Origin: Pirellulales bacterium
GTDB taxonomy: Bacteria > Planctomycetota > Planctomycetia > Pirellulales > Lacipirellulaceae
NCBI GenBank assembly: GCA_019636345.1
Contig: JAHBXQ010000004.1
Span: forward strand, 1 to 64,000
DNA: 64,000 nucleotides
Reading direction: 5' to 3'
Below the pieces are notes generated by a model, which saw nothing but the letters and a program-made list of their open reading frames with translations, did not search any database and was not told where the DNA came from. Position numbers and translations under genes: made by a program. Positions 4,984-15,091 of the stretch are shown here, in pieces (the stretch's first letter is position 1; each line of letters starts with the position of its first letter).

Positions 4984-5289
4984 CTGCGAAGACGCAACGC
5001 CTGCCGATCGAGCCCTGCCGCGTGCGGCGAGCCGCTCTCCCCCGCTCCCGTCGTGCCGCTCGCCCCCGTCCGACCCGACGGCTCGGCCCGTCGCCGGAGG
5101 ATCGGATCGGGCGTCGTGCGGCGACGTCGCGAACGGTCGGCGGCCAGGGGGATTCGCACAGGTCCCTGGGCGAACCTTCGGCGCCTCGCGAGCGGACTTG
5201 CGCGGGCTTGGGGATCGCGCAGGGCGCCGGACGCCGGCGACGCGGATCGCAATCGGATCGGAACGACCGGCAGAGCCGGGGTCGTTTCG

Positions 5290-5349: not shown

Positions 5350-8300
5350 ATGGGCCTGGAGACGAACAACGCGCGGGATTCCCGTCACGAGCCGTCGACC
5401 GACCGACCTGTCGGGGCGGTCGAGCAGGCGCTCGTCGCCCGCGACGCGGAGCCGTTGTTCGTCGTCGGCCTGGGAGCGTCCGCCGGGGGGCTGGAAGCGC
5501 TCGAGACGTTCTTCGAGCGGATGCCCGCCGATGCGGGGATGGCCTTCGTCGTCGTCCAGCATCTGTCGCCGGACTTCAAGAGCCTGATGGACGAGCTCCT
5601 GTCGCGCCGCACCGAGATCCCCGTCCATCGCGTCGAGGACGGCGTGGTCGTCGAGCCGAACGCGATCTACCTGATTCCTCCGAAGAAGGAGATGATCATC
5701 GCCGGGGGCCGGCTGCTGCTGACCGACAAGGATCCGGCGGCCGGCTTGAGCCTGCCGATCGACACGTTCTTCCGATCGCTGGCGCAGGAGGCGGGAGAAC
5801 GCGCGGCGGCAATCGTCTTGTCCGGAACGGGCAGCGACGGCTCGCGGGGCGTCCGCGCCGTTCACGACGCGGGAGGACTCGTCATCGCGCAGTCCGAGGA
5901 GACGGCTCGGTTCGACGGGATGCCCCGCAGCGCGATCGAAACGCGGGCGGTCGACTTGGTGCTCCCCCCCGAGGCCATGCCGCAGGCGCTGCTCGATCAC
6001 GTTCGCCGACCGATTCTCGGAGCGCGACTCGGGGGCCTTTCCGGGGAGGTCGTTTCCGAGAGCGGGATGAACGCGATCTACGCCCTGCTTCGCGCCGAGA
6101 TCGGGATCGACTTCACGCACTACAAACCGACCACCGTCTTGAGGCGGATCGACCGCCGGCTCCGGATCGCGCACGCCGCCGACCTCGACGAATACGTCGC
6201 CGCGCTCCGGAGCCAACCGGCCGAACTCCACGCGTTGTCCAAGGATCTGCTGATCGGGGTGACGCGATTCTTTCGGGATCCCGAGTTCTTCGCCCGGCTC
6301 GCCGCGGACGTCGTTCCCGACCTCGTCGCTCTGGCGACGCGCGACGAGGGGCTGCGCGTCTGGGTCGCCGGGTGCGCGACCGGCGAGGAAGCCTATTCGC
6401 TCGCCATGCTCTTTCACGAAGCGGTGACGGCGGCGGGGCGGCCCCTGGACCTCAAGATCTTCGCGACCGACGTCCACCGGGCGAGCCTCGAATTCGCCTC
6501 CGCCGGCCTCTACGACGAGGGGGCGTTGGCCGACGTCGCGCCGGCCCGCCGGGAGCGGTACTTCCTGCCCCAGAACGGCCGCTGGCAGATCGTCCCGGAG
6601 CTGCGGAAACTGATCGTGTTCGCGCCGCACAACGTGATCAAGGACGCCCCCTTCACGAAGCTCGACCTGATCAGCTGCCGCAATCTGCTGATCTACCTGC
6701 AGGCCCCCGCCCAGAAGAAGGCGCTGTCGCTGTTTCACTTCGGGCTCAAGACCGGCGGGGTGCTGGCCCTCGGCCCCAGCGAAAGCCCGGGGGAGATCGC
6801 CGAAGAATTCGCGACGCTCGATCCCCACTGGAAGCTCTATCGGAAACGGCGCGACGTGCGGCTGTTCGCCGAGATGCGAGCGCCCCTCGCGCCGGTCGTT
6901 CCGCCCGTCCCGCCCGTCCCGGTCGCGGGGAGCGTCCTGCGCCGTCCGCGGACGGCGCTCCCCGACGCCAACCTCCTCCGTGTCTACGACGAGCTGCTCG
7001 AGGCGTACGTCCCGCCGAGTTTTCTGATCAATGCGCAGCGCGAGGTCCTCCACGCGTTCGCGGGGGCGGGACGCTGGCTGCGGGTCCCGGACGGCCGTCT
7101 CTCCGCCGATCTGCTCGACATGGTCGACCGCGATCTGCGGCTGGCGATTTCGAGAGCCTTGCAGCGGGCGGTCCAGGAGAACGCGCCGGCCGCGCTCGGC
7201 GGCGTGCGGCGGGAGGCCGGCGGCGCGGCGGAGCGGCTCCGCGTCTCCGTGCGGCCGCTCGCGGTCCGCGGAGCGGGCGAACCGTACTGCCTCGTCGCGA
7301 TTGAACCGGACGAGCGGCCCCCCGCGGTCGCAGCGCCCGCCGGGGAGCTCGACGTCGCAGCGGCCTCGGAGCAGCGGCTGTCGGAACTCGACGACGAACT
7401 CCGGTACGCCCAGGAGAACCTGCAGGCGGCCGTCGAGGAGATGGAAACGACGAACGAAGAGCTGCAGGCGACCAACGAGGAGCTCGTCGCGTCGAACGAG
7501 GAACTCCAAAGCACGAACGAGGAGCTCCACTCGGTCAACGAGGAACTGCACACCGTCAACGCGGAGCATCAGCGCAAGATCACCGAGCTGACCGAACTCA
7601 CCGACGACATGGACAATCTGCTGCGGAGCACGGACGTCGGCACGATCTTTCTCGATCGGGAGCTGTTGATCCGCAAATTCACGCCCCGGATCGCCGAGTC
7701 GTTCCGGCTCCTCCCGCAGGACGTCGGCCGGCGGATCGACAGTTTTGCGCACGACGTCCTCCACCCCGGCTTGCTCGACGACGTCCGGCGCGTCTTGGCG
7801 GACGGCGCCGCGATCGAACGGGACGTACAGGACAAGCGGGGGGAGTGGCATCTGCTGCGGATCCTCCCCTATCGCACTCAGGAGGCGATCGAAGGGGCCG
7901 TCGTGACGCTGATCCCCGTGACGCGGCTCAAGAAGACCGAGGCCGAACTGCGGCGGCTGTCGAAGGTCTTCATGGACGGCGCCGACCCGATCCTCATCGA
8001 GGATCTTACGGGCACGATCCTCGACTTGAATCGCGAGGCGGAGCGGGCCTACGGCTGGTCCCGTGCGGAGCTCGTCGGGCAGCCCGTCACGAAGCTGATC
8101 CCTCCCGCCCTCCACGCTCGGAGCGACGCGCTCCGCCAACAGTGCCTGCGCGACGACTCGGTCCGCAACGTCGAGGCGGTCCGCTGCGCGCGTCACGGCG
8201 AACCGAGGCCCGTGCTCCTGACGCTGTCGCTCTTGCACGACGAGTCGGGGCGGCGGGCGGCGATCGCCAGCATCGCCAAGGACATTTCCGCGCAGAAACA

Positions 8301-9426
8301 GGCCGAGCAGGACGCCCGCGACGCCGCTCGCCGCCGGGACCAGTTCCTGGCGATGCTCTCCCACGAGCTCCGCAATCCGCTCGGCGCCCTGCTCAACGCG
8401 ACGCGGTTCGTCGTCCGCGCGGGGAACCGCGATCCCGCTCTCGGCCGGGCGTGCGCAGTCATCGAGCGTCAGGGGAAGCAGTTGGCGCGGCTCTTGGAGG
8501 ACCTGCTCGAAGTCTCCCGCGTCACGCAGGGGAAGATCCGCGTCGCTCCCCAGATCGTCGATCTCGTCGCCAGCGCCCAGGAGGCCGTCCAGGTCTTACA
8601 ACCGCTCGTCGACCGCCGCGGGCACGCGCTCGAGACGGAGTTCCCCGAGCGACCGCTCTACGTCGAGGGAGATCCGGCGCGACTGTTGCAAGTTCAGGAG
8701 AATCTCCTGGAGAACGCGGCGAAGTACACCCCGCGGGGCGGGACGATTCGGCTGGTCGTCCGCGAGGAGGCGGGGGAGGCGGTCGTCACGGTCCGCGACA
8801 ACGGCGTCGGGGTCCCGCCCGAGATGCAGTCCCGGATCTTCGAGCTCTTCGTCCAGTCGCCGCAGGCGCTCGAGGAGGACGAAGCGGGGATGGGGATCGG
8901 CCTCACGTTGGTGCAGTCGATCGTCAGTTTGCACGGCGGGCGGGTCGCGGTTCGGAGCGACGGCCCCGGCACGGGGAGCGAATTCGAAGTCCGGCTTCCG
9001 ACGACCGCCGAGCGCCCCGCCGCGACCCCGGCCGCCGCCGTCGCGCCGTCCCCGGCGGGGATGCGCGTCGTCGTCGTCGAGGACAACGCCGACAGCCGGG
9101 AGATGCTCGCAGCGCTGCTGACGATGGACGGGTACGACGTCGCGACGGCCGCCGACGGCCGGCAAGGGGTGCGGACCGTCCTCGAGCGGGCGCCGGACGT
9201 CGCCCTCGTCGATCTCGGGTTGCCGGGGATCGACGGCTTGGAAGTCGCGCGACGGATCCGCGCGGCCGAGCTGCCGCGGCCGGTCCGGCTCGTCGCCCTC
9301 ACCGGCTACGGCCGCGCCGTCGATCGGGAAGCGGTCTTCGCCGCCGGCTTCGACGAGCATCTCGTCAAGCCGGTCGATCCCGACGAGCTGGTGCGAATCC
9401 TCCGCCCGCCCCCGGCGGGGAGCTGA
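5350..9426 (+). CDS. CheB-CheR-PAS-histidine kinase-receiver hybrid sensor
   Basis: Single polypeptide of 1358 residues. Residues ~36-220 are a CheB methylesterase with the triad visible as S44 (GASAGG), H71 ([10 protein letters not shown]) and D163 (GTGSDGS). Residues ~235-500 are a CheR methyltransferase with the SAM loop [15 protein letters not shown] and the later [14 protein letters not shown] coiled coil of repeated TNEELQ-type heptads covers ~672-750, followed by PAS-like domains (~755-960). The HisKA H-box is LSHELRNP (H1005) and the HATPase has [11 protein letters not shown] and [11 protein letters not shown]-terminal receiver has its phosphoacceptor in [11 protein letters not shown] (D1288). 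No transmembrane segment is seen, so it is probably cytosolic. The ATG at 5350 fits the start of the conserved CheB part; the frame upstream is low-complexity. No chemotaxis genes are nearby. The gene converges on a CsrA-receiver protein, a plausible partner. Confidence 0.93.
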
Positions 9427-9577: not shown

Positions 9578-10348
9578 TCACGCCGGAACGAGTTCCGCGG
9601 CCAGGTCGCGCTCCATGGCGCGCACCAATTCCTCCGGGTCGACCGGTTTCGTGAACCAGCGGTTCACGCCGTGCGGACCGACCGGGACGTCGGCCTCCGC
9701 CGGAACCGTGCCGGTGACCGCGAAGATCTTCAGGTCGCGATGCTCGGGATGGCGGCGGATCGCGGCGACCGTCTTGGGACCGTCGAAGCGCGGCATCTTC
9801 ATGTCGAGGAGCACGACGTCGGGCGGTCCGGGCTTGGCGAGATGAACCATCGCCTGGAGGCCGTCCTGCGCGTCGTCGACCGCGAATCCGCTCAGCCGGA
9901 GATAGCCGGCGAGGAGTTCCCGTTCGTGGGGATCGTCCTCGACGACCAGCGCGCGGGGGGTGCGGGGGAGGGGCGCCGCGGCGTCGCGCGACGCGTCGTC
10001 GCCGTCGAGCTCCGCCTCGATCGCTTTGAGCTCCCGCAAGATCTCCAAGACGGTCGGCTCGGCGTCGTCGGTTCGCCCCGCGTCGAGTTTGCGCTGCAAC
10101 ACGCGGAGGCCGAGCGTCGCCCGTTGGAGCCGGTTCCGCGTCGCGTGGTCGAGCCCGCCGCTCGGCGCTGCGCGGTCGGTCGGCGATTCGCGGCGGTCCT
10201 CGGCGAGTTCCGCGCGGAGGACGGGGATCGATTTGGGGGCGTCGATTCCAAGTCGAACGTGCTTCCCCTCGACGCGCAAGATCTCTACGGAAATGCCGAG
10301 CGTGGGGAAGACGACCTTGTCGTTTCGTCCTCGAGAGAGAACAAGCAT
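9578..10348 (-). CDS. CsrA-receiver fusion (RNA-binding regulator with response-regulator domain)
   Basis: 256-residue protein. Residues 1-50 are a CsrA domain: MLVLSRGRND start, ILRVEGKHVRLGIDAP in the core and IPVLRAEL at the end, matching the LxLxR and PxxxxVxRxE features of the RNA-binding surface. A linker follows (~50-130) with a leucine-rich helix (LQRKLDAGRTDD, ILRELKAIEAEL). Residues ~132-250 form a receiver with acidic pocket VVEDD, phosphoacceptor D182 in VVLLDMKMP and conserved Lys in FTKPVDPEEL. Free-standing CsrA is ~60 residues and works as a domain-swapped dimer, so phosphorylation of the receiver could control dimerisation or mRNA binding. That is inference. The ATG at 10348 has GGAGG 7 bases upstream. 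The gene is convergent with the hybrid histidine kinase. Confidence 0.92.
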   Translation of the reverse strand: MLVLSRGRNDKVVFPTLGISVEILRVEGKHVRLGIDAPKSIPVLRAELAEDRRESPTDRAAPSGGLDHATRNRLQRATLGLRVLQRKLDAGRTDDAEPTVLEILRELKAIEAELDGDDASRDAAAPLPRTPRALVVEDDPHERELLAGYLRLSGFAVDDAQDGLQAMVHLAKPGPPDVVLLDMKMPRFDGPKTVAAIRRHPEHRDLKIFAVTGTVPAEADVPVGPHGVNRWFTKPVDPEELVRAMERDLAAELVPA

Positions 10349-10395
10349 AGCCGGGCCTCCATGCCTGCGAAGCGATCGCGCTCGGCCTCCGGCCG
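10349..10395 (-). promoter_or_regulatory. Leader of the CsrA-receiver gene with GGA-loop hairpin
   Basis: On the coding strand the leader holds a small stem-loop CGGCC-GGA-GGCCG (10383-10395), with GGA exactly in the loop, 34 bases before the start. A second GGA lies in the ribosome binding site GGAGG (10356-10360). CsrA proteins bind GGA in hairpin loops and at Shine-Dalgarno sequences, so this has the layout of an autoregulatory site. It is seen by eye only. Confidence 0.4.
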
Positions 10396-10688: not shown

Positions 10689-12371
10689 TCAGCGGGAGTC
10701 AGCCCGCCGGGCCGGCAGGCGCCCTGCGAGCAGTCCCGCGATCGCCGCGGCCAGCAGCAGTCGCGTCGGCGGCTCCGGCGCGCTCCCGGCGGCCGCCGCG
10801 CCGGCCGTGCCGAACTGCGTCGTCCAGATCGCCAGATCGTCGCGATCGACCGTCCCGTTCCCGTCGCCGTCGCCGTCGAATCGGAAGGCCCCGGCGTTCG
10901 TCCCGGCTCCCCGCTGCCACCTCAGGAAATCGTCGCCGTCGACGTCGGCGTCGCGATCGAAATCGCCGGTCGAAGGCCCGGGGGGCGGCAGCGGCAGGTC
11001 GAGGCGAAGGCTTTCGCCGCCGGTCACCGCATACGACCGGCCCAGCACGTCCGTCACGTCGACGGTCCCCGCGGAGACGCTCAGGTCCAAGGTCCCGAGG
11101 CGATCCGCTTCCCCGTACTCCAATTCGTAACGGGTGCCGCGGACGGCGACGGCGGCCGTCGAGGTTACGACCCGGGGACGCGGCCCGGCGCCGAACAAGG
11201 TTTCGAACGACAGCTTCCCCGCGAGCAGCTTGACGATCGTTTCGACGACGGTCGGACTCCGCAGAGTCCCCACTTCCAACGTGCCGTTCGGTAAGAGCGC
11301 CGCTTTCGCCCCGTCCTCGAACAGGACTGTGACTTCATGGGCGGACGTGTTGAGCACGACGTCCCCTTCGACGAGCGCGTAGCCGTCCTGAGCCGGGAAG
11401 CGGGGCCGTCCGATCGGCTCGATCCACACGCCCGCGGGGTCGCACTGCAACGTGGCGACTTCGTGCCGCGGCGCCTCGCGCAACTCGACGCCGCCCGGCA
11501 GTGCGAACGCGGGGACGGTCAGGTTCGCGCTCCAGGTCGCTTGAGCGCCGGCGCGCGGATCGTCCGGATCGACGTTCTCGGCGTTCGTCCCGGCCGCGAC
11601 GCCCGCGGCGACGACCTGTCCCAGCGAAAACCGTTCGCCGATCCGGGCCGGAAACTGAAACGCGAACGTCCCGCTCATCGGCAGCGACGCCGGCGAGGTC
11701 GTCACCGGCTGCGACGCGCTGGCGCCCGCGAGACTCAACGCCGGCAGGTCGCCCGACCGGGTGAACGACGCGGTCAGGTCGCCGGGGGTCGTCGTGTGGC
11801 TGTCGAGCGGACGGGCGTGGAGTTCGTAGGGAAAGACCGGAAAGAGCGACGGCTCCGCTTCGCCGTAGCCGAGCGCGGGGCCGAGATCGAGGTCGACCCC
11901 GGCGCCCCCCGGAACGTCGACGTAGCGGAACCCGAGCGCACCGCTGACGCTGAACCGGGCCTCGAGCGTCACCTCGGCGCCCCAAGGAAGCGTCGGAGAG
12001 TACGCATAGTAGTGTCGGAAGCGAACGGCGCTGACGTTCGCGTACCCGCCGAAATGCCCGGGGTTGCGATTGTTGGTTCCGACGCCCGACCCGTCCACGC
12101 GGAAGGTCGCGGCGTCGAGGACCAGCCCGGCGGAGGCTTGACTTCCCGTCACGGCGGCGCCGAGCGTGCGGTCGAGCGGGCTCGAGCCGAACGGAAACGC
12201 GGCTTCCTGCGCGTCGGTCAGCGCCGGACTCGTCGCCTGCACGACGAGCTGACCGAAGGAGTAGGGCTCGACCGCAGCCGCGCGGGCCAGCCCGATCGTT
12301 CCCAGGACGACCGCCGCGGCGACGGTCGCTGGCGCATGGTTGTCGACGAATTGGTTTCCTGACTGCCGCAT
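10689..12371 (-). CDS. Secreted FecR-domain protein with dockerin repeats and PEP-type tail
   Basis: Exported protein of about 560 residues. The ATG at 12371 gives a signal-like segment (ATVAAAVVLGTIGLARAAA) after a basic start and has AGGGGG upstream. The middle is beta-rich. A FecR-like domain covers roughly residues 325-475 (CDPAGVWIEP, EGDVVLNTSAHEVTVLFEDG, AAVAVRGTRYELEY). A pair of calcium-dockerin-like repeats follows (DFDRDADVDGDDFLRWQRG and DGDGNGTVDRDDLAIW). The end, APEPPTRLLLAAAIAGLLAG then RLPARRADSR, is a weak PEP-CTERM signal. FecR proteins usually act with an ECF sigma factor; none is adjacent, so here the domain is more likely structural. Function unknown. Confidence 0.8.
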   Translation of the reverse strand: MRQSGNQFVDNHAPATVAAAVVLGTIGLARAAAVEPYSFGQLVVQATSPALTDAQEAAFPFGSSPLDRTLGAAVTGSQASAGLVLDAATFRVDGSGVGTNNRNPGHFGGYANVSAVRFRHYYAYSPTLPWGAEVTLEARFSVSGALGFRYVDVPGGAGVDLDLGPALGYGEAEPSLFPVFPYELHARPLDSHTTTPGDLTASFTRSGDLPALSLAGASASQPVTTSPASLPMSGTFAFQFPARIGERFSLGQVVAAGVAAGTNAENVDPDDPRAGAQATWSANLTVPAFALPGGVELREAPRHEVATLQCDPAGVWIEPIGRPRFPAQDGYALVEGDVVLNTSAHEVTVLFEDGAKAALLPNGTLEVGTLRSPTVVETIVKLLAGKLSFETLFGAGPRPRVVTSTAAVAVRGTRYELEYGEADRLGTLDLSVSAGTVDVTDVLGRSYAVTGGESLRLDLPLPPPGPSTGDFDRDADVDGDDFLRWQRGAGTNAGAFRFDGDGDGNGTVDRDDLAIWTTQFGTAGAAAAGSAPEPPTRLLLAAAIAGLLAGRLPARRADSR

Positions 12372-12905
12372 GACGACCACCCCCTGACGGTTGGGCGGCA
12401 ACGACGAAGAGATTCCCTCAGCACCCGCCGGATGACGACCGGTCGACGGCGGCGCAACCCCCGCGCGGGGAGGCCTTCGCCTGCGGGAGAGACCCGCAGC
12501 GGGCGCTCCTCGCCGCCCCTGCAAGAGGGGGCGCCAAGGCGTGCGCATCGAGAAGCCAAGCGTGCCATCGCACACCTGCCTGTGTCGCCCCGGCACGGCC
12601 GCCGAGCGAACCGCTCGGCGCCGCAGGCCTTGAGCTCGGGGGCCTGATCATGCCGGGGTCTTGTGCGGAGTGCTCGGGAGTTCAAGCGGCAAATCCGATG
12701 CCGCGGGGGCTCGTCACGGGCCTCTCGGCGGGTCGAGGCTCTCGCTTCCGAAGGCGCCGCGGCTTGGGGAACGGGCCGGCGAGGGGCCGGCTCGTGTGAG
12801 CCAAACAAAAAAGCGAGCCGAGGCGTGGGCCTCGGCTCGCTGGGAGATGCTCGTTCGATTGTCTGCCGCGCCCGACGTCCGGGGCTGCAGGGGATCGCCC
12901 GCCGG
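12372..12905. other. Intergenic region with palindromes and a terminator
   Basis: No gene seen. Upstream of the FecR gene lie two palindromes, CCCCGCGCGGGG (12459-12470) and CTGCGGG/CCCGCAG (12481-12499), which could form part of a structured leader. The other end holds the terminator listed separately. Confidence 0.5.
12803..12840 (-). terminator. Rho-independent terminator of the 12906 PEP-CTERM gene
   Basis: Perfect 12-bp arms GCGAGCCGAGGC (12813-12824) and GCCTCGGCTCGC (12829-12840) with a 4-base loop. On the minus strand they are followed by a T-rich run (complement of 12803-12812). It begins 65 bases after the stop of the minus-strand gene above it, which sets the direction. Confidence 0.88.
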
Positions 12906-13685
12906 TTAGGCGCGGCGACGACGGAGGTAAGTCGCAAACCCGCCGGAGGCGATCATGCCCAAGAGCACGAACGACGACGTCTCGGGGACGGCCGAGAAGC
13001 TGAAATTGTCGATGGCAAGACCGTGGTCGTTGCCGGCGTCGTTCAATTCAATCCAGCGGATCCAGAGGGTCTCGCCCACCTTCCATTTAATGTCGTTGAT
13101 TGTCCCGCCGCGATTGGCGACAAGTCCGGCGACGTTGCCGTCTACGGCTGCTGCGGTTGAAGTCGCCACCGGAGAGGTCCAATCGAAGGTCCCGCCAGGA
13201 GCAGTCCAAGTGGTCACGCCAGCAAACGTGCTCCCGAACCCGTATTGCAGGACCATCGGTTGAGCGGTGGTATTCCCGCCGTTTCGCCACTGTTCGCCGT
13301 CGAAACCAACAGTAAACGAAAACAAAGTTGCCGAGGTATCGTTCGTTAATCCAATAGCGATATAGCCGGAAAGCGAACCTGAGCCGACGCCGCCAAGAGC
13401 ACGATCCTGAGCACTGGCCGAGCCAAAACTGTAGAACGCGCCAGCGTTGCTGCTTCCAGTTCCAACAGTGTACTGTGTGATCGCAGCATTGCTGGAGTTA
13501 AACAAATACCATCCGTCGAGCGTGGTATCGTTGGTCCAGGCTACCGTTGTCCCCGTTGACGCCAACGTGTTGAAGTTCTGAGTGTACGTCGACAAAGTCG
13601 TATCGTACGACAACGTCGCGTCAGCGCGGGGCGTCGCGAGGACGCAGAGGGCCAGAATGGCAAGGCAGGTACGCAGCAGCTTCAC
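12906..13685 (-). CDS. PEP-CTERM secreted protein
   Basis: Exported protein of 259 residues. The GTG at 13685 is preferred because it starts a good signal peptide (KLLRTCLAILALCVLATPRADA) and follows GAGAGGGG on the coding strand. The mature part is a Thr/Ser/Gly-rich beta-sandwich-like sequence without a named domain. It ends with the sorting signal VPETSSFVLLGMIASGG and a basic tail YLRRRRA, where the second Pro of the canonical PEP is replaced by Thr. A strong terminator follows, so it is likely a single-gene unit. The protein is probably processed by the exosortase at 17-19 kb. Role unknown. Confidence 0.82.
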   Translation of the reverse strand: MKLLRTCLAILALCVLATPRADATLSYDTTLSTYTQNFNTLASTGTTVAWTNDTTLDGWYLFNSSNAAITQYTVGTGSSNAGAFYSFGSASAQDRALGGVGSGSLSGYIAIGLTNDTSATLFSFTVGFDGEQWRNGGNTTAQPMVLQYGFGSTFAGVTTWTAPGGTFDWTSPVATSTAAAVDGNVAGLVANRGGTINDIKWKVGETLWIRWIELNDAGNDHGLAIDNFSFSAVPETSSFVLLGMIASGGFATYLRRRRA

Positions 13686-14332
13686 AGGAAGTCCCCTCTC
13701 AATGCAGCTCAATTGATTTCCATCAGGAGGCCCGGCCGCATCGGCCTCAAACCGCCTGATCCACTTTTGCATCCGCCGTCTACTTCTCGTTACGATTCTT
13801 GCAGGCGTCCGAATCGGCGTCAACCATTTTCCCGCAGCCAACGGGCCCGTATTCCGAGGCAAGTGAGCGGAACAGGAAGTCGCCGCCTCGTCATTCGCCT
13901 CGACTTAAGTCCAGACCCCGGCTCTATAGCAAGGTGCATCTTCTGCGCCGAAACGGGCTCTTGTCCCGGTTCGATCCAACGGACCGCGTAACACCCTTTC
14001 CGACAACACGTTAGTGCGACACATGGATCGCCCCCCGCCGCCCGTGCGGGGGAGGGGACGGCGGGCCGTGCCGGATAATTCGGCGCCGGCCGCGTAAACG
14101 AGGCGCAACCTTGGGGCGCTCCTTGGCACGGCTCGCCCGCTCGACCCTTACCGGGCTCCGGGGGGTGTCCGCTCTTACGGCTAGGTCGCCCCGAGCGGTG
14201 CAGGTCGTTGAGGTCCCAAGCCGCCTCGCCACAAGTCAGCCCCCCGGCACAAAGGCACAGCCGTGGTCACCCTCGTGACCACGGCTGTACGGAGATCGAT
14301 CAAACAGGGGTGCGAACGGTTGCCGGGGGTCC
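13686..14332. other. Intergenic region between two PEP-CTERM genes
   Basis: About 650 bases without a supported gene. It must carry the promoter of the 13685 gene, but no convincing -35/-10 pair stands out. The 3' hairpin of the 15091 gene is listed separately. Confidence 0.5.
14257..14288 (-). terminator. Perfect 14-bp hairpin after the 14333 PEP-CTERM gene
   Basis: Arms ACAGCCGTGGTCAC (14257-14270) and GTGACCACGGCTGT (14275-14288) pair perfectly over a 4-base loop, 44 bases past the stop. The T-run on the minus strand is weak (CCTTTGTG), so termination may be partial. The unusual length and perfection of the stem make chance unlikely. Confidence 0.65.
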
Positions 14333-15091
14333 TTATCCGCCGCGCCGCCGAGTCCAGTACGCCCCGGCCGTGACGCAGCCGACGAGCCCGGCGAACAGGA
14401 AGCTGGACGCCTCGGGCACCGCGGCGATCGCCGTGCCGTTGATCGTCACGTTGTCGAACCGCCACGTGCCGCCCGAGCCGTAGTCGCCCGTGGTCGTTCC
14501 GCCGCCGGGCGTATAGCTTGCAGCGGCGTTGGCTCGCATGTACGCCGTATTGGCGGCGTAGTCGGGCAGGGAGGCATTTTGGTCAAACGCCACCGGCGAG
14601 AAGATCGAAACGATCCGCAAGCCGAACAGGGGGTTGTCGTTCGCCCCGCCGACCGAGGAGAGATCGAAGTCGAAGGTGTAGAACGCGTCGTGCGGAGAGA
14701 GCCCGCCGCCGTTGTCGGCGAACGGCGTCCAAGAACTGCCGCCGTTGGTCGTGTATTGAACTTCGGCCCAGCGCGACGCGGTGCCGCTCGCCCGATGATC
14801 GAACGAGAGGGTGATGTTTTCATACCCCGCGGTGCTGACCATGAACTGCACGCCGCGGGTCCCGCTGCCGGCGCCTTGAGCGGCGTAGCTTGTGGTGTTC
14901 CAGCCGCGTCCCGGGTTCCCCGCCGCGAAGGTGGCGGTGACGCCGACGAGGGAGGCGGTTCCGGCGCCTGTGGACGGGGTGGTCACGTCCCCCTCGAACG
15001 TCCACTGTGTGATTAGGTCGGCCTGCGCCCTTGCGGTCAGCAGCAGGACGGCGGCCAGGATCGGGACAGTGTTCTTCATTGCGCTCTTCAT
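14333..15091 (-). CDS. PEP-CTERM secreted protein
   Basis: 252-residue exported protein. It has a signal peptide (KNTVPILAAVLLLTARAQA) and a mature start at DLITQWTFEGD, the opening often seen in planctomycete and cyanobacterial PEP-CTERM proteins of jelly-roll type. It ends with VPEASSFLFAGLVGCVTAG and the basic tail WTRRRGG. The ATG at 15091 has GGAG nine bases upstream; a second in-frame ATG at 15076 is also possible. The sorting tail has Ala in place of the second Pro. Probably a surface protein handled by the local exosortase. No catalytic motif seen. Confidence 0.83.
   Translation of the reverse strand: MKSAMKNTVPILAAVLLLTARAQADLITQWTFEGDVTTPSTGAGTASLVGVTATFAAGNPGRGWNTTSYAAQGAGSGTRGVQFMVSTAGYENITLSFDHRASGTASRWAEVQYTTNGGSSWTPFADNGGGLSPHDAFYTFDFDLSSVGGANDNPLFGLRIVSIFSPVAFDQNASLPDYAANTAYMRANAAASYTPGGGTTTGDYGSGGTWRFDNVTINGTAIAAVPEASSFLFAGLVGCVTAGAYWTRRRGG

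Follow-up and report, generated by a model that had tools for sequence, protein, structure and literature searches.

A planctomycete protein family joining CsrA to a receiver through a predicted HisKA-like hairpin, and its possible place in a phosphorelay

The locus and the fusion protein

The window, that is, the whole stretch of 64,000 nucleotides analysed here, comes from a Pirellulales bacterium (contig JAHBXQ010000004.1) and carries two convergent genes whose ends lie 151 bp apart. The gene on the plus strand (5350..9426; the start codon is uncertain and the longest open reading frame begins at 5053) encodes a hybrid sensor kinase with the domain order CheB-CheR_N-CheR-PAS_10-PAS-HisKA-HATPase-REC, in which HisKA corresponds to 8335..8532, HATPase_c to 8668..9006 and the C-terminal receiver to 9067..9402. 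The gene on the minus strand (9578..10348) is identified by its Pfam domains and its homologues. Its frame is unbroken and stop-free over 256 residues, starts with MLVLSRGRNDKVVFPTLGISVEIL and is closed by a stop codon; a GGAGG ribosome-binding site can be read at 10356..10360 on the same strand, 7 nt before the ATG. Pfam assigns residues 1-51 to CsrA (PF02599, 52.6 bits, cut-off 27) and residues 134-245 to Response_reg (PF00072, 70.6 bits, cut-off 30.2), and it finds no HATPase_c match in the protein. The fusion of CsrA to a receiver in one protein of 256 residues, as proposed in the initial annotation, is therefore confirmed, since a single frame carries both domains above their cut-offs; neither a stop nor a frameshift, which that annotation had named as counter-evidence, lies between them. 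Because residues 62-116 form a predicted helical hairpin with an H-box of the HisKA type, the architecture reads as CsrA-DHp-REC without an ATPase domain. The minus strand at 10689-15091, upstream of the fusion gene, encodes in succession three proteins that are predicted to be secreted and have PEP-CTERM-like ends, the first of which also resembles a FecR/dockerin-type protein (both by eye).

CsrA usually occurs as a free chain of about 60 residues and forms an intertwined dimer; the E. coli protein is not known to contain a receiver. According to Pfam and the alignment, the CsrA domain of the fusion (10196..10348, minus strand) keeps the RNA-contact residues L4, R6, V43 and R45. R6 and R45 are present in all 73 aligned members of the family, and in a set of 96 members R6 is found in 96, R45 in 95 and L4 in 83; a conserved loss of these contacts, which the initial annotation had raised as a possibility, is the opposite of what the homologues display. 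R45 presumably corresponds to R44 of E. coli CsrA. In the E. coli protein, R44 and L4 are critical RNA contacts (PMC7652899), and we infer that the CsrA part of the fusion would bind RNA. The family also carries a mark of its own, F14-P15, with F14 in 90 and P15 in 94 of the 96 members; none of the six further CsrA sequences encoded in the window's genome has it. Against the NCBIfam csrA equivalog, a model of the free protein of about 60 residues, the 256-aa fusion scores 42.5 bits, below the cut-off of 70.1. As for the six other CsrA genes of this genome, fliW directly precedes a free csrA at G000:C2:267674-268343 (L002, L194), and five further csrA-like genes are present in addition to the fusion.

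The receiver (residues 132-250; 9599..9955, minus strand) is supported by Pfam and by Foldseek matches in the PDB. It holds the full set of expected residues, namely the acidic pair E137-D138, the phospho-accepting D182 (codon 9803..9805, minus strand), T212 and K234. Among the 73 aligned members D182 and K234 occur in every one, D138 in 72, T or S at position 212 in 73, and W231 is invariant; the earlier description of the receiver as intact, with D182, an acidic pocket and a lysine, stands. The best 60 of 210 matches in a PDB sequence search all fall on the receiver and none on CsrA or the hairpin, and the same is true of the best 50 of 1269 Foldseek matches obtained with the full model, a query that was monomeric and poor over CsrA. 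At three loci (L176, L179, L180) an N replaces D182 in the receiver, H68 is missing and the stretch examined contains no kinase, while R6 and R45 are kept; these fusions are perhaps constitutive RNA binders.

Three full-length homologues, with 56-58% identity over the best segment, were found on contigs of Planctomycetota MAGs (L008-L010), one of them named Bythopirellula sp. When the single protein was searched against 396 genomes of the same order, 63 genomes matched at E <= 1e-20. Among the 84 matches listed, 77 span both domains and 7 are partial, and 82 are stop-free and 2 contain an internal stop (hand counts). With an alignment of 37 of the 73 members as the query, 75 of the 396 genomes matched at E <= 1e-30, some of these matches being partial or damaged in the receiver. 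A sample of the phylum gave matches in 16 of 392 genomes, all 16 in the class of the window's genome, the share of the 392 outside that class not being given. As homologues recur across the order and in the phylum sample, the CsrA-receiver fusion is well established as a protein family in at least one planctomycete class, which answers the call of the initial annotation for a search across Planctomycetes for receiver proteins with an N-terminal CsrA domain.

The 73 aligned members are a subset of the matches, taken from regions around those of the single-protein search. The gene call behind the 96-gene counts missed four of them (L059:12857, L077, L103, L107), and a count of 102 genes results from a kinase survey that was redone by reading the loci in six frames. 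Six CsrA genes with no detected receiver were left out of the 73-, 96- and 102-gene counts. The loci L182 and L184-L188 encode CsrA proteins of about 260-295 aa without a detected receiver; in the two that were inspected, L182 and L184, the C-terminal portion resembles a receiver that has decayed.

The segment between CsrA and the receiver

Conservation, profile comparison and a structure model all point to a HisKA-like (DHp-like) helical hairpin at residues 62-116 (10001..10165, minus strand), with helices predicted at 68-89 and 96-115. The first helix opens with the H-box H68-x-x-R71-N72-x-L74, whose histidine (codon 10145..10147, minus strand) is the proposed phospho-acceptor. H68 is present in 60 of the 73 aligned members and in 75 of the 96; R71, N72 and L74 are found in 60, 57 and 63 of the 73, and hydrophobic positions and then a further helix come after the H-box (a pattern seen by eye). 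In the AlphaFold2 model, which was computed from four sequences and is monomeric, blocks of 10 residues within these helices have a pLDDT of 51-78, the receiver reaches 75-86, the part ahead of residue 66, CsrA included, is poor, and the mean is 66.7. Conservation and the predicted helices rule out that the segment is a disordered spacer.

Single linkers were scanned against Pfam at E <= 1. HisKA was the commonest family, with weak matches in 16 of 49 linkers (best E 2.4e-4), followed by SPOB_a and a TPR family with 5 of 49 each, likewise weak. The window's own linker had no match to HisKA (PF00512) at this threshold. SPOB_a was considered as a better family and rejected, since its matches were only weak and rose above its cut-off in 0 of 29 related genomes. 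The set of 49 linkers was picked by hand from 70 and was meant to omit rows without the histidine and near-duplicates. It is not entirely pure, as it includes the H-less L049:15757 and L055:13944 and leaves out the H-bearing L062 and L065 (which have insertions), L096 and the H-bearing copies of L049 and L055. Three members that have no linker (L058, L059, L060) are excluded from all linker sets.

In a comparison of profiles with hhalign, the linker profile matched 15 HisKA domains of the same genome with a probability of 96.7 and a score of 44.6, histidine being aligned to histidine, against a maximum of 17.4 over 200 column permutations and 13.9 for the reversed profile; all 70 linkers together scored 41.7. 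Masking the histidine lowered the score to 27.3, masking H, R and N to 18.5, and masking eight H-box columns to 13.5, which is noise. Ten H-less linkers alone scored 12.7 against HisKA versus 54.8 against the 49-linker set. Since the masked scores fall to noise, the resemblance to HisKA is a resemblance of the H-box, placed on a helical hairpin.

In HisKA domains of CrdS and its relatives, an acid at H+1 goes with kinase activity and an N or T at H+4 with phosphatase activity (PMC3510030). Among the 75 rows of the 96 that bear H68, N occupies H+4 in 70, and an acid occupies H+1 in only 26; in the window this residue is A69, which is not acidic. The retention of the H+4 asparagine together with the frequent absence of the H+1 acid fits a phosphate-handling domain without an ATPase domain.

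Some proteins lack one of the parts. Three members of 186-190 aa (L058:6252-6809, L059:12857-13414 and L060:13351-13920) join CsrA straight to the receiver with no hairpin. At L165:9341-9982, a protein of 213 residues reads as a hairpin and receiver with the same H-box and no CsrA, which suggests that DHp-REC may exist as a free module. On the evidence of this protein and of the three members without a hairpin, the hairpin, the receiver and CsrA seem to shuffle as units.

Neighbouring kinases and the H-box histidine

By six-frame reading, 69 of the 102 family genes have a HATPase gene no more than 1 kb away (63 of 96 by the earlier gene call), compared with 10 of 240 control genes (at least 150 aa long and at least 6 kb away on the same loci). 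For the other 33 of the 102 no HATPase gene was found within 1 kb, a number to be read with the facts that some contigs end nearby and that a locally built profile may miss divergent kinases. HATPase, HisKA, REC, CheB and CheR were called with profiles built from the kinase of the window. In the 96-gene set the nearest kinases are CheB-CheR hybrids in 35 cases, shorter hybrids in 14, two-receiver hybrids in 3 and kinases without a terminal receiver in 11. Their orientation and their side relative to the fusion gene vary among loci, which would argue for a functional, and not merely inherited, gene order. We infer that the neighbouring hybrid kinase is the partner of the fusion. Two matches to standalone HPt were found in the window's genome, an observation that is compatible with, though no proof of, a requirement for a further phosphotransferase.

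The presence of H68 follows the type of the nearest kinase. For the nearest kinase within 1 kb, the 102-gene set has the histidine in 56 of the 57 fusions next to a hybrid kinase and in 0 of the 12 next to a kinase without a terminal receiver. At 500 bp the counts are 53 of 53 and 0 of 5, and at 2 kb 57 of 58 and 3 of 15 (L065, L100, L163). At 1 kb the 96-gene set gives 51 of 52 and 0 of 11, and the 73-member set 37 of 37 and 0 of 11 (Fisher p 4e-11, uncorrected for kinship); three of these last 11 have lost the whole hairpin. The exception at 1 kb is L174, which is H-less near hybrid kinases and whose receiver is also damaged. At L171 the gene of the receiver-less kinase overlaps one whose product looks like a regulator of the OmpR type, probably the true partner of this kinase.

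At 2 kb the pattern is weaker, and the evolutionary changes behind it are few. Most of the H-less rows beside a receiver-less kinase belong to one paralogous clade. Trees were built without the hairpin. In a first tree of 48 rows each trait changes twice and one independent pair is supported; a larger tree of 63 rows shows four changes of the histidine versus three of kinase type, with three supported pairs, two of which go the same way and one of which shows no difference. With only three supported pairs a sign test cannot reach significance, and the tree-aware result is consistent with the pattern. The histidine was also compared with the state of the fusion's own receiver: H68 is missing in 8 of 10 members with a damaged receiver (four-residue criterion) versus 13 of 86 with an intact one, and of five supported pairs about three go the same way, none goes the opposite way and about two show no difference.

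Both kinase types can occur at a single locus. At L049-L054 and L057, two CsrA-REC genes, of which only one has H68, stand about 9-11 kb apart. The CheB-CheR proteins between them are a receiver-less kinase, sometimes a CheB-CheR-PAS protein devoid of a kinase, and then a hybrid kinase. In several genomes with such paired copies, which flank two or three CheB-CheR proteins, H68 is kept beside the hybrid kinase and absent beside the receiver-less one.

A possible phosphorelay and its alternatives

The initial annotation had suggested that the fusion links post-transcriptional control directly to two-component phosphorylation. The suggested link is supported by the conservation of the fusion, by the retention of both active sites and by the kinases found within 1 kb of most copies. 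The suggestion is incomplete, because it missed the conserved HisKA-like H-box in the segment between CsrA and the receiver; the histidine kinase that usually lies close to the gene had gone unnoticed as well. Given this H-box, a relay through an internal histidine is likelier than a plain receiver-output protein. We propose, with a probability of roughly 0.57, a four-step phosphorelay running from the kinase histidine to the kinase receiver, then to H68 and finally to D182, which would control RNA binding by CsrA.

The fusion would then be a response regulator with a CsrA output and a built-in DHp-like histidine phosphotransfer domain between the two. The neighbouring hybrid kinase would autophosphorylate on the histidine of its HisKA domain and transfer the phosphoryl group onto the receiver at its own C-terminus, which in turn would pass it to H68 of the hairpin. 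The hairpin is expected to dimerise and to work like ChpT or Spo0B, and H68 would pass the group on to D182 of the fusion's receiver. Phosphorylation may shift the arrangement of DHp and REC on the C-terminal side of the CsrA dimer and in this way change RNA binding; the CsrA and DHp dimers could share one two-fold axis. There is a precedent for allosteric control from this side, as the hairpin and the receiver would hang on the side of CsrA that FliW uses: in B. subtilis it is the C-terminal extension of CsrA through which FliW acts (PMC7366521). A four-step relay also calls for just such a histidine, one required only when the kinase bears a receiver of its own.

A different role for the hairpin, which we regard as rather unlikely, is that of a dimerisation and phosphatase module only. 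The kinase would then phosphorylate D182 directly, N72 would dephosphorylate the receiver in cis or in trans, and H68 would not carry phosphate. This agrees with the asparagine at H+4, the phosphatase residue of HisKA (PMC3510030), in 70 of the 75 H-bearing rows, and direct signalling from kinase to receiver is possible and presumably takes place in the linkerless L058, L059 and L060. It does not explain why H68 itself is conserved in 75 of 96 members, as the histidine matters little for the phosphatase activity of CrdS: with CrdS H371A the half-life is 2.6 min versus 53.5 without CrdS (PMC3510030). Nor would a plain phosphatase predict that, within 1 kb, H68 is found beside hybrid kinases and not beside receiver-less ones.

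The output could also be something other than RNA regulation. CsrA would in that case serve as a unit for dimerisation or for binding proteins (e.g. FliW or other CsrA chains), and the receiver would act through protein-protein contacts. With six other CsrA genes in the genome, one of them beside fliW, the global Csr work could be done elsewhere, and the near-invariant F14-P15 is missing from those six sequences. Against this stand the almost invariant RNA-contact residues, including the counterparts of the contacts that are critical in E. coli (PMC7652899), and the persistence of R6 and R45 even where the receiver has lost D182 (L176, L179, L180), and we find this explanation improbable. An artefact in which an assembly or frameshift error joined two genes, a thought prompted by the usual small size of CsrA, is ruled out for practical purposes by full-length homologues that keep the same domain order across dozens of genomes, some of them single-contig.

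The relay proposed here has several known relatives. ChpT of the CckA-ChpT-CtrA pathway in Caulobacter and Spo0B of Bacillus are histidine phosphotransferases in which the hairpins of two subunits form a four-helix bundle (PMC3433190, PMC9981736). The fusion would resemble them as a dimeric helical-hairpin phosphotransferase, its own dimerisation being presumed by analogy, and ChpT, which resembles a kinase DHp, likewise connects a hybrid kinase with a response regulator (PMC3433190, PMC9981736). ChpT differs in being a separate protein with a degenerate ATPase-like domain, whereas the hairpin of the fusion has no such domain and sits between a receiver and an RNA-binding output. In E. coli, BarA is a hybrid kinase. 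The BarA/UvrY-CsrA system is similar to our proposal in that a two-component kinase ultimately governs the activity of CsrA (PMC10277598). There, however, the regulator activates transcription of the CsrB/C RNAs, which sequester CsrA, and the fusion is proposed to work without this sRNA step.

With the CsrA/RsmA family (PF02599) the fusion shares an N-terminus that scores above the Pfam cut-off and contains L4, R6 and R45. Members of that family are small free proteins controlled by sRNAs, FliW or CesT (PMC7366521), whereas the CsrA of the fusion is one end of 256 residues and carries F14-P15 in an early turn. The ANTAR regulators EutV and PdtaR are also response regulators with an RNA-binding output (PMC7602753, PMC12471899), but they act by transcription antitermination and the output is C-terminal in PdtaR (PMC12471899), whereas the fusion has an N-terminal CsrA and an internal phosphotransfer-like domain. 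PMC12471899 classes E. coli CsrA as an 'orphan RR', which is something other than a receiver fusion. A search of titles and the beginnings of abstracts, which mostly did not extend to subscription papers, gave no description of a CsrA-receiver protein, and InterPro or UniProt may already list the architecture. What we rate as new in this response regulator is its output domain, together with the phosphotransfer-like domain inside the chain.

The paired copies, one with the histidine and the other H-less beside a receiver-less kinase, allow a further reading, which is possible but doubtful. Two kinases might be integrated on homodimers and heterodimers of CsrA whose RNA faces are switched separately. 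CsrA-DHp-REC, as phosphotransferase and final receiver in one chain, might represent a new class of relay end point that acts directly on mRNAs.

As a global post-transcriptional regulator, CsrA is, in the cases described, controlled mostly indirectly, through sRNAs or antagonists such as FliW. If the proposed relay is correct, a sensor in these bacteria would act on existing mRNAs directly and with no transcription step. The fusion would also provide a testable system for how signals from the C-terminal side, to which FliW binds in B. subtilis CsrA (PMC7366521), reach the RNA pockets of CsrA. Within one planctomycete order the family is common, with matches in 75 of 396 genomes, and its pairing with hybrid kinases makes the prediction of phosphotransfer specific.
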